From assembly GCF_004342905.1 (NCBI RefSeq), contig NZ_SMAN01000017.1, forward strand, positions 1-64,000: DNA of 64,000 nucleotides, read 5' to 3'. Position 1 is the stretch's first letter. Every line of letters begins with the position of its first letter. Positions 48,938 through 53,602 of this stretch are shown here, in pieces. A program made the translations under genes and the position numbers. Below the pieces are notes generated by a model, which searched no databases, was not told the origin of the DNA, and saw only the letters and a program-made list of their open reading frames with translations. Origin of the DNA: Melghiribacillus thermohalophilus. Its GTDB lineage: Bacteria > Bacillota > Bacilli > Bacillales > Alkalibacillaceae.

Positions 48938-48982
48938 AAAAAGGATTCAATGAGTTCTCGGGACTCGTTGAATCCTTTTCTT
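48938..48982. terminator. Bidirectional terminator between alsT and the sigma operon
   Basis: AAAAGGATTCAA/TTGAATCCTTTT plus inner GAGT/GACTC pairing, with A and T runs on both sides. It lies 15 bp past the alsT stop and 40 bp past the end of the convergent sigma-factor operon. Confidence 0.85.
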
Positions 48983-49021: not shown

Positions 49022-49972
49022 CTAATGATGGATGCTAAGCTCACGAACATCTTTAAAGGCGATGGAATATTTCCCGTCTCCAAACGTTTTGGTGAAAGAA
49101 ACGGGTCCTTGCTTCTGTTTATCTACCTCGAATTCGCTGGTATCATCGTTTTCCTTCTCCTGTATATCATGCTTTCCCGCTACCAATCCGGTTGAATCCT
49201 CTATCCGGCCCACATTTGAAGCAGAAATGGTGAGATTTTCCCACTGATCCATGTACAGCCCCACCCGGTTTCCTCTCACTTCCCAGTTCGCTTTCAGCTC
49301 ATCGATATGCAATTTAACAGTTGGAAAGGGATACTCGGACCATCCCACCTTAATCTCTACATCGATATTCTCCGGTATGGAAAGGGTCGGATCATACCGA
49401 TAGGAGGAATGGTATATTCCATTATCTTCGGGCAGAGATAAAACCTGAATATGCAGTATTTCCCCCGTTTGAATAAACTGAACAAGCTCTTCCTGCGAAA
49501 GCTTTTTTCCATTGGCTGTATCTGTTTCGTAAATTCCGAAAAGGATAGCTTCCCTTTTACTGGTTGTTTCTATATTTAAGTGATCCGAGGGATGAACCAC
49601 GATTTTAGAAATGTCTGACGGAATGGACCTTTGAACGACAGGCAGTGCCTCTACCTTTTCCTCTGCATGTACGGCTTTTTGAATTTCTGCAAGGATTCCC
49701 GTGGACTGTATGACATATAGTCCGATTCCTGCTGTCCCGATCATACCGATAAACAAAATACTCAGGACATCATATTTCAGTATGGGAGTTTGCTCTTTCG
49801 ACTGAAAAAGGTAAATTAATATTTCCAGGCCCAGTACGATTAATATCACGGGCCACCAGGAAAAAGCGATGACCGTCATATCCCAGTGAAAAAATTTGGC
49901 CAGCACCAGGATCACGCCAAGGAATAGCAAAGAGAGACCCATGGAAAAAGTTCCTATTCGCCATTGCCTCAA
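49022..49972 (-). CDS. Membrane protein with LiaF-like N-terminal domain and adhesin-like tail
   Basis: The 316-residue protein has two close membrane helices at 10-57 with the FSWWPVILIVLGLEIL turn seen in LiaF/DUF5668-type proteins, then a third at about 68-90. An extracytoplasmic beta-rich domain (about 100-316) with repeated strands such as LHIDELKANWEVRGN and LTISASNVGRIED resembles DUF4097-like beta-helices. It is the last gene of the ECF sigma operon and overlaps the triple-TM2 gene by 4 bp. By position it may sense or transmit envelope stress; this is inference. Confidence 0.7.
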   Translation of the reverse strand: MRQWRIGTFSMGLSLLFLGVILVLAKFFHWDMTVIAFSWWPVILIVLGLEILIYLFQSKEQTPILKYDVLSILFIGMIGTAGIGLYVIQSTGILAEIQKAVHAEEKVEALPVVQRSIPSDISKIVVHPSDHLNIETTSKREAILFGIYETDTANGKKLSQEELVQFIQTGEILHIQVLSLPEDNGIYHSSYRYDPTLSIPENIDVEIKVGWSEYPFPTVKLHIDELKANWEVRGNRVGLYMDQWENLTISASNVGRIEDSTGLVAGKHDIQEKENDDTSEFEVDKQKQGPVSFTKTFGDGKYSIAFKDVRELSIHH

Positions 49973-51069
49973 GATTCCTCATCTCCCTTCTCCACTTTTT
50001 TTCCCATTAGTAATTTGAAGCCAATCACTACTAAAACGAGACTTACCACACCTGTTTGAAAATACTCCTGATAGTAGTAATAGATATTCCAGTTTTGCAG
50101 TTCCCTCGCCAGGCCCGGAACAAGGATGGAGTCCAAAATAATGAAAAATCCGACAACTATCAGACCAATCCCCAGCCATTTTTGGTGATTTAAAAAATAT
50201 TTAATGACTGGCACATCGTTGATTTCTCCCCACTCGTAACGGCTGAACTGCTGAAGGGCATCAAAAAAGCTGAAAAACCAGATGACCGGGATCAAAAATA
50301 AAAAGATCGAAAGATGCAGCACATCGAGAAGATAAATGGAGAGAAGAAAGAAAATCATCAGTTGGATTCCTCTCTGCTGAAGGCCAAGATACAAATGTCC
50401 CGCCCCCGGAAACATAGCAAGAACGGTGGTGATCACTTTGCTTTTCTCCCCGCTGATCCGATGTTTTTCAATATCTTCAATAATCGATATATCCTCGAGT
50501 TTTTCTCCCCGGTCTTTCTTATTCAGAAGCTGGATGGTATCAAATAAACTGTAAATCCAGATGACCGGCAAGATAAACAAAAAGAGCAAAAAACCTACTT
50601 CCCTGGTAAGAATCGAAACAAACAATACCATTGAGCCCAGGCCAAGAAAGCCTGCGAGCAGCGTGACTCCCCGCTGGTTTAATCCGAGATGGAAATGACC
50701 GACGCCGGGTATAAAGGAAAGAATAATTGTCAGGAAACGCTCATTGGTCTGGCTGTCCTGAACCTGCCGGACATTAGCTGTTTCAGTGGTAGCCTTACTG
50801 CCTGCAACAGTCGGGACGTTCTGATCCCTGTTCCACAGCAACGTCATCACGATATCCAGCATATTGATCCCCCAGATGCCTGCAGCAGTCAGCAGAAAAA
50901 ATAACGAGAGCATGTCATCAAAAATCATAATTCCGGTAATGAACGTAAGACCAAGGGCACCCACGAAACTAAAGGCATACATGACTCCTCGGATCTTCCT
51001 GTCTAAATATATATGACCGAGTCCAGGAAAAAACGCCAGTAAAAAGGCAACGGCTGAAGACTTATTCAT
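49969..51069 (-). CDS. Triple-TM2-repeat membrane protein
   Basis: The 366-residue polytopic protein is built from three tandem TM2-like units. Each opens with the same motif: AFFPGLGHIYLDRKIRG (about 12), SFIPGVGHFHLGLNQRG (about 119) and AMFPGAGHLYLGLQQRG (about 218). Each ends in a W-x-x-x-x-x-D helix (IWGINMLDIVMTLLW, WIYSLFDTIQLL, WFFSFFDALQQF). A final pair of helices follows. Charged linkers sit between units. TM2 domains elsewhere occur singly. It overlaps the anti-sigma gene and the LiaF-like gene by 4 bp each, so it is translationally coupled to both. The function is unknown. Confidence 0.75.
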   Translation of the reverse strand: MNKSSAVAFLLAFFPGLGHIYLDRKIRGVMYAFSFVGALGLTFITGIMIFDDMLSLFFLLTAAGIWGINMLDIVMTLLWNRDQNVPTVAGSKATTETANVRQVQDSQTNERFLTIILSFIPGVGHFHLGLNQRGVTLLAGFLGLGSMVLFVSILTREVGFLLFLFILPVIWIYSLFDTIQLLNKKDRGEKLEDISIIEDIEKHRISGEKSKVITTVLAMFPGAGHLYLGLQQRGIQLMIFFLLSIYLLDVLHLSIFLFLIPVIWFFSFFDALQQFSRYEWGEINDVPVIKYFLNHQKWLGIGLIVVGFFIILDSILVPGLARELQNWNIYYYYQEYFQTGVVSLVLVVIGFKLLMGKKVEKGDEES

Positions 51070-51509
51070 GACTGTTTATCCTCCTTTCCAGGTTCAATGA
51101 TTTTAAATAATCCTGAAGTCTTCTTCATCAGCTCCGATGTAATGGATGTATCCCTGTTTTCCACAGCATCCGTTACATCCGTCACTTTTTGAAAAGCGCC
51201 CGTAAACATCAGACACAGAGTCAATCCCGCAGCTATTCCATAATGAATGATCGTTTTTCGCGTCACATGCCGGGAGGATTTATCCCTGGACCTGGAATCA
51301 GGAATTTTTTCTTCTAAGAGCCTTAACGTTCCATCCGTAAATGAATCAGAAAGTTTTTCACCGGGCTCCCACTCATCAATGATGTTCATATACCATCCGA
51401 AACATGAATCACAGTGCTCCAGATGCACACGAATGTCTTCCTTTTCCTGTTCACTTAATTCTCCATGAATAAACTTCTCCATCTTTTCAATACTCAGGTG
51501 GGACATCAA
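51066..51509 (-). CDS. Zinc-finger anti-sigma factor (membrane)
   Basis: The 147-residue protein has an N-terminal ZAS (zf-HC2) motif, HVLEHC-like HLEHCDSC, with the His-x3-Cys-x2-Cys ligands at about 29-36. A linker follows and one membrane helix at 89-106 (HYGIAAGLTLCLMFTGAF), then a short outside tail. Such proteins hold an ECF sigma factor inactive at the membrane until a signal arrives. Its ATG overlaps the sigma-factor stop by 4 bp. Confidence 0.85.
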   Translation of the reverse strand: MMSHLSIEKMEKFIHGELSEQEKEDIRVHLEHCDSCFGWYMNIIDEWEPGEKLSDSFTDGTLRLLEEKIPDSRSRDKSSRHVTRKTIIHYGIAAGLTLCLMFTGAFQKVTDVTDAVENRDTSITSELMKKTSGLFKIIEPGKEDKQS

Positions 51510-52078
51510 AAATCATCCTCCTTCCAGTGCTCACGCATCCATTTTCTCGCCCGGTACAGCCGCATTTCCACGGTTTTTTTCGCCAGATGAAATTCTTCAC
51601 CTATTTCCTGGTACGACTTCCCTTCTAAATAATGGGCTTTGACAATTGTCCGATAAGACTCAGGCATTTCACCAATAGCCTGTTCAATGTTTCGTTTTCT
51701 TTCCGTATCGATGACGGCCCATTCAGCGCTTTCTTCCTGGATGGGATGAAAAGCATCTTCCTCAAAGGCTGTCAGTTCTTCATGCTTTCTCTTCTTTTTC
51801 CGATATGCGTCAATCGCTGTGTTAAACGCGATGCGGCTCAGCCATGACTTAAAACCCCTGGATTCATAAGAAGGGAGAGCATCCATCATCTTCAAAAATA
51901 CTTCCTGGGTAAGATCTTCTGCCTCCTGCAGATCTTTGACAACGCTGTAAGTGATTTTAAAAATGTGTTGTTTATACTTTTCGATCAGAAGCCTCAGTGC
52001 CTGTTGATTTCCTGATTTGATTTTTTTGATTAAAACCTCGTCATGAATGGCTCTCCCCCTCCCTTCACAAGGCTTCAT
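51506..52078 (-). CDS. ECF-type RNA polymerase sigma factor
   Basis: The protein of 180-190 residues has sigma region 2 (LIEKYKQHIFKITYSVVKDLQEAEDLTQEVFLKM, residues about 30-65; RGFKSWLSRIAFNTAIDAYR) and region 4 (YRTIVKAHYLEGKSYQEIGEEFHLAKKTVEMRLYRARKWM). The annotated ATG at 52078 has no good RBS. A GGGAGGGGG stretch instead precedes an in-frame ATT at 52048, which would start the protein at the usual HDEVLIKKI point; this would be a rare start codon. It heads a four-gene overlapping operon. A sigma-A-like promoter lies upstream. Confidence 0.85.
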   Translation of the reverse strand: MKPCEGRGRAIHDEVLIKKIKSGNQQALRLLIEKYKQHIFKITYSVVKDLQEAEDLTQEVFLKMMDALPSYESRGFKSWLSRIAFNTAIDAYRKKKRKHEELTAFEEDAFHPIQEESAEWAVIDTERKRNIEQAIGEMPESYRTIVKAHYLEGKSYQEIGEEFHLAKKTVEMRLYRARKWMREHWKEDDF

Positions 52079-52171: not shown

Positions 52172-52206
52172 TAACTGACTAAAAAGCTCCTGGCCTTCAG
52201 TCAGTT
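52172..52206 (-). terminator. Terminator overlapping the SRAP gene end
   Basis: AACTGACT/AGTCAGTT stem with a long loop. On the minus strand the exit reads ATTTTTTA. The stop codon of the SRAP gene lies in its right arm. Confidence 0.65.
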
Positions 52207-52871
52207 GAAGTAATCCCTTCTATGCATCGGGGCCCCTCATTTTTTGGATTGTTCACGAATGTTGATACTTCATCCGCCGTTAAGTCTTCATCAGGCAGGC
52301 CCAGAAGAAAATCCCTCATTTCGTCGGGATCTCTCTGTTGAGGGTCAATCCATCGATCCTCATCGTCCTGCGGCAAAATAACCGGCATCCGATCATGAAT
52401 GTTTTTCATAAAGTCATTGGGCGCCTTCGTTAAAATCGTGCAGGTGACCAGCTCCTGATCTCCCTTTTTCCATCGATCCCATAGTCCGGCAAAAGCAAAC
52501 AGTCTGCGATTGTTTAAGGATATGCGGAGAGGCTGCTTTTTCTTACCTGTCTGTTTCCATTCATAAAAACTGTCCGCCACGATCAGACACCGCTTTCTAG
52601 CAAGCAGATGTTTAAAACTCGGTTTCGATGAAGCCGTCTCAGCCCTGGCATTAATCATCTTATAGCCGATACTCGGATCCTTTGACCAGAAAGGCACAAG
52701 TCCCCAGCGCAAATATCCTGCCTTGTTCCTTTTCCCGTCATTCACAATGCAAAGCACGTCCTGGGAAGGTGCAATATTGTACCTGGGATGATAATCATCC
52801 AGTCGGTGGTCAATGCCGAACCTCTCCAGAATTTCAAGTTCTTCAGCCAGCAGTGTAAAGCGTCCGCACAA
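52197..52871 (-). CDS. SRAP domain (HMCES/YedK-type) abasic-site DNA-protein crosslinking protein
   Basis: The 224-residue protein starts with Met-Cys-Gly-Arg-Phe if initiation is at the TTG at 52871, which has AGAGGGG eight bases upstream; upstream in-frame codons give an extra three residues. After Met removal Cys2 is the catalytic nucleophile of SRAP proteins, so TTG is strongly favoured. Other marks: YNIAPSQ, LRWGLVPFW, NARAET with catalytic Glu/Asn, RCLIVADSFYEWK and HDRMPVIL with the active-site His. It crosslinks to abasic sites in single-stranded DNA. It starts 5 bp after the plsC stop, so they are co-transcribed. Confidence 0.9.
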   Translation of the reverse strand: MCGRFTLLAEELEILERFGIDHRLDDYHPRYNIAPSQDVLCIVNDGKRNKAGYLRWGLVPFWSKDPSIGYKMINARAETASSKPSFKHLLARKRCLIVADSFYEWKQTGKKKQPLRISLNNRRLFAFAGLWDRWKKGDQELVTCTILTKAPNDFMKNIHDRMPVILPQDDEDRWIDPQQRDPDEMRDFLLGLPDEDLTADEVSTFVNNPKNEGPRCIEGITSTD

Positions 52872-52876
52872 ATCCC

Positions 52877-53602
52877 TCACCCCTCTCTTCTCTGCAGAAC
52901 CTGCATGATTTTGGTCTGTGCACGCTCGGCCAGATGACTCAATGGATATGCCCCATAATCCTCTGGATAAATAGGATCGCAGACCGTCAACTTCACTTGT
53001 GCCGGTTTGATTCCGATTCCGTTTTGTTCCATGATGTGATATGTTCCGTCAATCACGACCGGAACCACGGGAACCCTTGCCCTGACTGCCAGTCTGAAAC
53101 TCCCCGCTTTAAAGGGGTGCATCTCTGGTCCTTTCGTTCGGGTCCCCTCAGGAAAAATCACAAGAGAGTGTCCGTTTTTCAGCACATCGATTCCCTTTGC
53201 AAACGCCTGGACCGTCTGCCTTTTATTGGTCCGATCAATAAAAACACAGTGCATTTCTTCCATCCATGAACGGACAACAGGAATTTTTTTTACTTCTATT
53301 TTAGACATAAATCCCACAGGTTTATCCAGATAACCGAGAAGGGCCATAATATCAAAGTTCCCCTGATGATTGGCGACAATCAATACCGGACCTTCCGGAA
53401 ATTTTTCGTTTCCGGTAATCGTCACCTTCGCTCCTGCCGCTCTGAGGATTCCCTTTGCCCATCTTTTCGGCAGATCAAATATGATGGCATCCTGTTCATC
53501 TGCAGGCAGTGATGCAATGTTTTTCTTTTTGATTTTCCATAATGCTGGCAAACTGTAACAGATAAAACCGATCATATAGATCGCCGTCCAAATGGTTCGC
53601 AT
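52877..53602 (-). CDS. plsC: 1-acyl-sn-glycerol-3-phosphate acyltransferase (PlsC family)
   Basis: The 241-residue protein has an N-terminal membrane helix and the acyltransferase blocks I NHQGNFDIM (H-x4-D), II (VFIDRTNKRQ) and III FPEGTRTKG, with block IV VPVVPVVIDGTY. The enzyme adds a second acyl chain to lysophosphatidate in phospholipid synthesis. Its length is normal. It shares a transcript with the SRAP gene, five bases apart. YhdO-type in B. subtilis is the closest match I recall. Confidence 0.87.
   Translation of the reverse strand: MRTIWTAIYMIGFICYSLPALWKIKKKNIASLPADEQDAIIFDLPKRWAKGILRAAGAKVTITGNEKFPEGPVLIVANHQGNFDIMALLGYLDKPVGFMSKIEVKKIPVVRSWMEEMHCVFIDRTNKRQTVQAFAKGIDVLKNGHSLVIFPEGTRTKGPEMHPFKAGSFRLAVRARVPVVPVVIDGTYHIMEQNGIGIKPAQVKLTVCDPIYPEDYGAYPLSHLAERAQTKIMQVLQRREG

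Follow-up and report, generated by a model that had tools for sequence, protein, structure and literature searches.

The window, a 64,000-nucleotide stretch of Melghiribacillus thermohalophilus contig NZ_SMAN01000017.1, carries at 49022-52078 on the reverse strand a four-gene operon of overlapping open reading frames in the ORF list, encoding in order of transcription an ECF sigma factor, a zinc anti-sigma factor, a membrane protein with three TM2 units and a LiaF-like protein. Comparison across Bacillota, where the same gene order recurs, indicates that this operon is a very old bacterial switch, and it probably senses envelope trouble through the repeated-TM2 membrane protein. The features of the region are as follows.

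51506..52048, (-): ECF sigma factor, 180 aa from ATT (listed ORF 51506-52078, 190 aa); Sigma70_r2 and Sigma70_r4_2
51066..51506 (listed ORF 51066-51509), (-): ZAS-type single-span anti-sigma factor with HxxxCxxC and a short outer tail; zf-HC2
49969..51069, (-): TM2x3 membrane protein, 366 aa, DUF6677/TM2; eight predicted TM helices
49022..49972, (-): LiaF-like protein, three predicted TM helices followed by a toastrack beta domain; PF18917
52084..52112, (-): predicted autoregulatory ECF promoter, -35 TGTAGGG at 52112-52106 and -10 CGTCTG at 52089-52084
52046..52065, (-): sigma RBS AAGGGAGGGGGAG and predicted ATT start codon (52048-52046); AUU, AUC or AUA at the homologous position in 38/89 loci, TTG, GTG or ATG in others
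52173..52206, (-): terminator-like hairpin between the upstream SRAP-type gene and the operon; pattern match only
48939..48979, listed +: terminator-like hairpin with a 19-pair stem, separating the operon from the convergent transporter gene; pattern match only

Because terminator-like hairpins lie on both flanks and the downstream neighbour is convergent, we take the operon to consist of four genes. It is bordered by a transporter gene downstream and an SRAP-type gene upstream, and no kinase or response regulator gene lies inside it. The initial annotation had linked all four genes by 4-bp overlaps; the linkage holds, as do the 4-bp overlaps of anti-sigma with TM2 and of TM2 with LiaF-like, but the sigma and anti-sigma genes are likely to overlap by 1 bp (TGATG), since anti-sigma orthologues begin with M-x-H and the start is therefore most likely the ATG at 51506. 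The upstream SRAP/YedK-type gene (window 52197-52880) ends just before the operon, and genes of this type do likewise in loci L011, L015, L018 and L034.

Pfam analysis of the sigma factor revealed Sigma70_r2 (68.6 bits) and Sigma70_r4_2 (60.3 bits), that is, sigma2 and sigma4 without sigma3, as in ECF sigma factors. The anti-sigma factor matched zf-HC2 at 30 bits, above the cut-off, and has the HxxxCxxC motif and single TM helix of the ZAS type; the zinc motif is kept in 107/115 orthologues. In the orthologous loci only 27-60 residues (median 43) follow its TM helix, and a tail of this length is too short for a sensor domain. Mean column identity in the orthologue alignments was 60% for sigma, 54% for the TM2 protein and 41% for the anti-sigma factor.

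The TM2 protein carries the PG.GH..LG repeat three times, at residues 12, 118 and 218. It was assigned by Pfam to DUF6677 (PF20382; 34.8 bits) and scored 23.4 bits against TM2 (PF05154) as a whole protein and 27.9 bits with its neighbours, the family cut-off being 27.9. Its AlphaFold model (pLDDT 86) showed eight TM helices, arranged as three TM2 pairs followed by a C-terminal hairpin, and no convincing relative among solved structures was found with Foldseek or VIA-align. The LiaF-like protein matched LiaI-LiaF-like_TM1 (PF18917) at 28.1 bits (cut-off 27), which corresponds to the TM region of LiaF, while the LiaF C-terminal domain PF09922 was not matched in a Pfam search at E 1. Its model (pLDDT 85) comprised three TM helices and a beta domain, the latter matching toastrack structure 4qrk (Foldseek E 3.6e-8; Z 9.1 over 144 residues, rmsd 3.9). 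The loop charge pattern suggests that this domain lies outside the cell; one survey assigns many toastrack domains to the cell interior (PMC11237479). A hairpin shared by the TM2 C-terminus and the LiaF-like N-terminus is not claimed, the profile comparison being weak (17 columns, probability 8.7). One single-TM2 relative matched PF18917 at its own C-terminus, below the cut-off.

To follow the operon through other genomes, the TM2 protein was used as the search query, and gene surroundings were annotated with profiles built from the window proteins. TM2 matches were found in 7/22 genomes of the family, 76/299 of the order and 61/398 of the phylum, and the plasmid search gave one partial match. 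The initial annotation had proposed looking for TM2 beside ECF sigma genes elsewhere; in 115/117 loci from Bacillales, Paenibacillus and Clostridia, sigma and anti-sigma genes immediately preceded TM2, the counts of independent cases being approximate owing to a few possible near-duplicates between collections. Of the two exceptions, one lies at a contig end and the other is a lone paralogue. Far from lying mostly apart from the sigma/anti-sigma pair, the TM2 and LiaF-like genes followed it on one strand, in the order sigma, anti-sigma, TM2, LiaF-like, almost everywhere. The four-gene arrangement described initially is thus upheld, with all ORFs present on the minus strand and Pfam in agreement, and its recurrence at this frequency argues that it is not due to chance. 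Locus L137 (G029) holds a solitary short TM2 paralogue of 176 aa with no sigma or anti-sigma gene nearby.

Co-inheritance of sigma and TM2 was close. In the family, exactly the seven TM2-bearing genomes hold the sigma factor at 258-275 bits, no other sigma factor reaching more than 113. In the order, a sigma orthologue was present in 75/299 genomes and TM2 in 76/299, with both in 74, i.e. 74/77 of the genomes having either; two TM2 genomes below the sigma threshold (L109, L110) do carry a weaker sigma beside TM2.

The TM2 proteins fell into size classes of about 155 aa (one unit), 270 aa (two units) and 360 aa or more (three units), the C-terminal unit being the one common to all. Copy number follows the sigma tree: unit number required 3 changes on a quick sigma tree against a shuffled mean of 29, and the three-unit loci formed one group with a support of 97. 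The LiaF-like gene behaved differently, being absent or decayed in about 20% of operon loci, where unrelated genes or remnants take the place after TM2, and its presence required 16 changes on the same tree. From the 3 against 16 changes and these remnants, we conclude that the core consists of sigma, anti-sigma and TM2 and that the LiaF-like gene is accessory; the LiaF-like protein, missing from about a fifth of operons, no longer fits the role of core sensor that had been suggested for it. Gracilibacillus-type loci L041 (7361-9000) and L024 have no LiaF-like gene and carry a second ECF sigma gene (176 aa) after TM2, behind which L041 encodes a 318-aa membrane protein.

Promoter scans, which used sequence patterns rather than a weighted matrix, identified TG[TC]AGGG-N16/17-CGTCT or a close variant upstream of sigma in most orthologous loci. 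At the strict pattern, the window copy, TGTAGGG-N16-CGTCT, is unique in the 3.0-Mb genome and lies just before the operon, so the regulon in M. thermohalophilus may be the operon alone. Over 299 genomes the strict pattern likewise marked mostly the operon itself. Additional copies were intergenic in 17/20 cases in operon-bearing genomes versus 3/20 in operon-free genomes (Fisher p=1.9e-5), a comparison based on a subset of sites and on two genome sets that differ in lineage, which makes the evidence for an envelope regulon good but not final. Among the genes behind these copies were LTA-synthase-type sulfatases in four genomes, an S11 DD-carboxypeptidase immediately preceding the operon in two genomes, and an M15 peptidase, RodA/FtsW, an MGDG-type glycolipid synthase and NlpC/P60, together with an HlyD-type efflux subunit and asparagine synthase. 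The envelope role put forward in the initial annotation is supported by the lipoteichoic acid, glycolipid and peptidoglycan types among these genes. In one family, at L077:1972-2915 and L080:6190-7107, a separate copy of the sigma promoter precedes the DD-carboxypeptidase gene that lies immediately before the operon. In another genome, which gave no TM2 match, a promoter closely resembling the sigma promoter of its congener persists (L178:1466), possibly from a decayed operon.

The listed ATG of the sigma gene at 52078 stands only 5 nt past the predicted -10 element and ahead of the RBS, so the gene most likely starts at the rare codon ATT (52048-52046), which stands behind RBS AAGGGAGGGGGAG, with the conserved AED motif of region 2 following 42 codons later. 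Among 89 loci the homologous codon was ATT in 26, ATC in 9 and ATA in 3 (AUH, 38/89), and mostly TTG, GTG or ATG in the rest. These shares are approximate, since the automatic assignment is imprecise wherever ATC and ATT stand side by side or a different candidate scored better. This amounts to a conserved non-canonical start behind a strong RBS, as in sigR. That translation instead begins at the listed ATG or at an internal GTG or ATG, with the conserved ATT a mere isoleucine codon, seems very unlikely: an ATG or GTG does precede the RBS in some relatives as well as in the window, but an in-frame stop separates the -10 element from the AUH codon in 16/38 AUH loci, 19/38 have no canonical start from the -10 element to 14 codons past AUH, and sister lineages have TTG or ATG at the position of the ATT. 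The listed starts of many sigma orthologues are probably wrong.

Conservation of the operon, its co-inheritance, the promoter with its intergenic placement and the position of the start codon are backed by sequence comparison; we infer complex formation, a signal relay, control by IF3 and the nature of the signal. In the mechanism that we propose, the zinc anti-sigma factor would hold the ECF sigma factor at the membrane. As the anti-sigma factor is almost without an outer domain, the TM2-repeat protein would serve as its obligate partner in the membrane, carrying or relaying the signal and so setting anti-sigma activity, comparable to the role proposed for YhdK with YhdL in the SigM system, and the LiaF-like toastrack protein would be an accessory modulator. 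Once released, sigma would use the TGTAGGG-N16-CGTCT promoter to transcribe the operon that encodes it; in several lineages its targets would also include genes of lipoteichoic acid, glycolipid and peptidoglycan metabolism. The rare AUU start would keep sigma scarce relative to the anti-sigma factor, comparable to the GTC start of Streptomyces sigR. We consider the chances about even that the operon is such an autoregulated envelope-stress module, in which a nearly tail-less anti-sigma factor depends on the TM2 protein as its membrane partner and the LiaF-like protein acts as modulator. A wider version, in which a Bacillota-wide pathway enlarged the sensing partner of its anti-sigma factor by stepwise addition of TM2 units and gated sigma synthesis by IF3 through a deeply conserved AUU start, is possible but less likely than not.

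Co-inheritance in one operon does not tell a regulator from an output, and the main rival accordingly takes the TM2 and LiaF-like proteins for effectors that stabilise the membrane or envelope, with sigma and anti-sigma as a local switch whose main output is their own operon. This is possible, if on the doubtful side. The single copy of this promoter in the M. thermohalophilus genome, the frequency of toastrack and LiaI-LiaF proteins in PSP-type membrane-protection operons (PMC11237479), and the loss of the LiaF-like gene while the remaining operon persists are all in keeping with effectors. Effectors are, however, usually more detachable, whereas TM2 without the sigma/anti-sigma pair occurred only as one lone paralogue and sigma orthologues were scarcely seen without TM2; the further envelope targets in other lineages and an anti-sigma factor with no sensor domain of its own also speak against this explanation. 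In many ECF systems the anti-sigma factor is subject to regulated intramembrane proteolysis. The TM2 and LiaF-like proteins might then protect the anti-sigma factor or present it to proteases, with no allosteric relay, and its short tail could be a stub for a site-2 protease, but the operon contains no protease gene and we consider this improbable. In the SigM system the anti-sigma factor is reported to remain full length when induced.

Returning to the TM2 protein as partner of the anti-sigma factor, the initial annotation was right to give this protein a likely part in signalling; it had not recognised the arrangement as described. A literature search outside the main ECF classification found no description of an ECF sigma factor with a TM2 domain, of multi-TM2 proteins or of a TM2/anti-sigma operon, but the idea of two membrane proteins acting together has a precedent in YhdL and YhdK, which jointly hold SigM inactive in Bacillus subtilis (PMC11081497). 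Both appear to be ECF sigma operons with two membrane proteins and an output touching the cell wall, which for SigM comprises cell wall and lipid carrier functions; the present operon differs in its zf-HC2 anti-sigma factor with a short tail, its TM2-repeat partner, its LiaF-like fourth gene and its promoter. As in LiaF/LiaFSR and PSP-type toastrack operons (PMC11237479), a protein of this envelope-stress operon combines a LiaI-LiaF-type TM region with a toastrack domain; here, unlike in LiaF/LiaFSR, there are three TM helices, no Pfam match to the LiaF C-terminal domain, no LiaRS, and coupling to an ECF sigma factor and TM2. For a DUF2089 toastrack context the same survey notes a sigma factor linked through the operon; TM2 does not appear in it (PMC11237479). 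TM2-domain proteins are widespread, and their phylum-wide tie to one sigma/anti-sigma pair offers a direct test of their role; through its predicted promoter and target genes the pathway itself can be tested straight away.

For the translation start, a literature search found no publication that connects sigma factor genes with an AUU start, and sigR is the one worked precedent among ECF sigma genes for starting at a non-canonical codon. Its GTC start, repressed by IF3, keeps the anti-sigma factor in excess, and was reported only in Streptomyces (PMC5472188). Like sigR-rsrA (PMC5472188), the present operon pairs an ECF sigma factor with a zinc anti-sigma factor and has a strong RBS and a conserved non-canonical start; sigR-rsrA, however, has GTC and a redox-sensing anti-sigma factor, whereas AUU, AUC or AUA is found here in Bacillales, Paenibacillus and some Clostridia. 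If AUU is indeed the start codon, sigR would be joined by a second and broader example of a sigma factor gene restrained at translation initiation.
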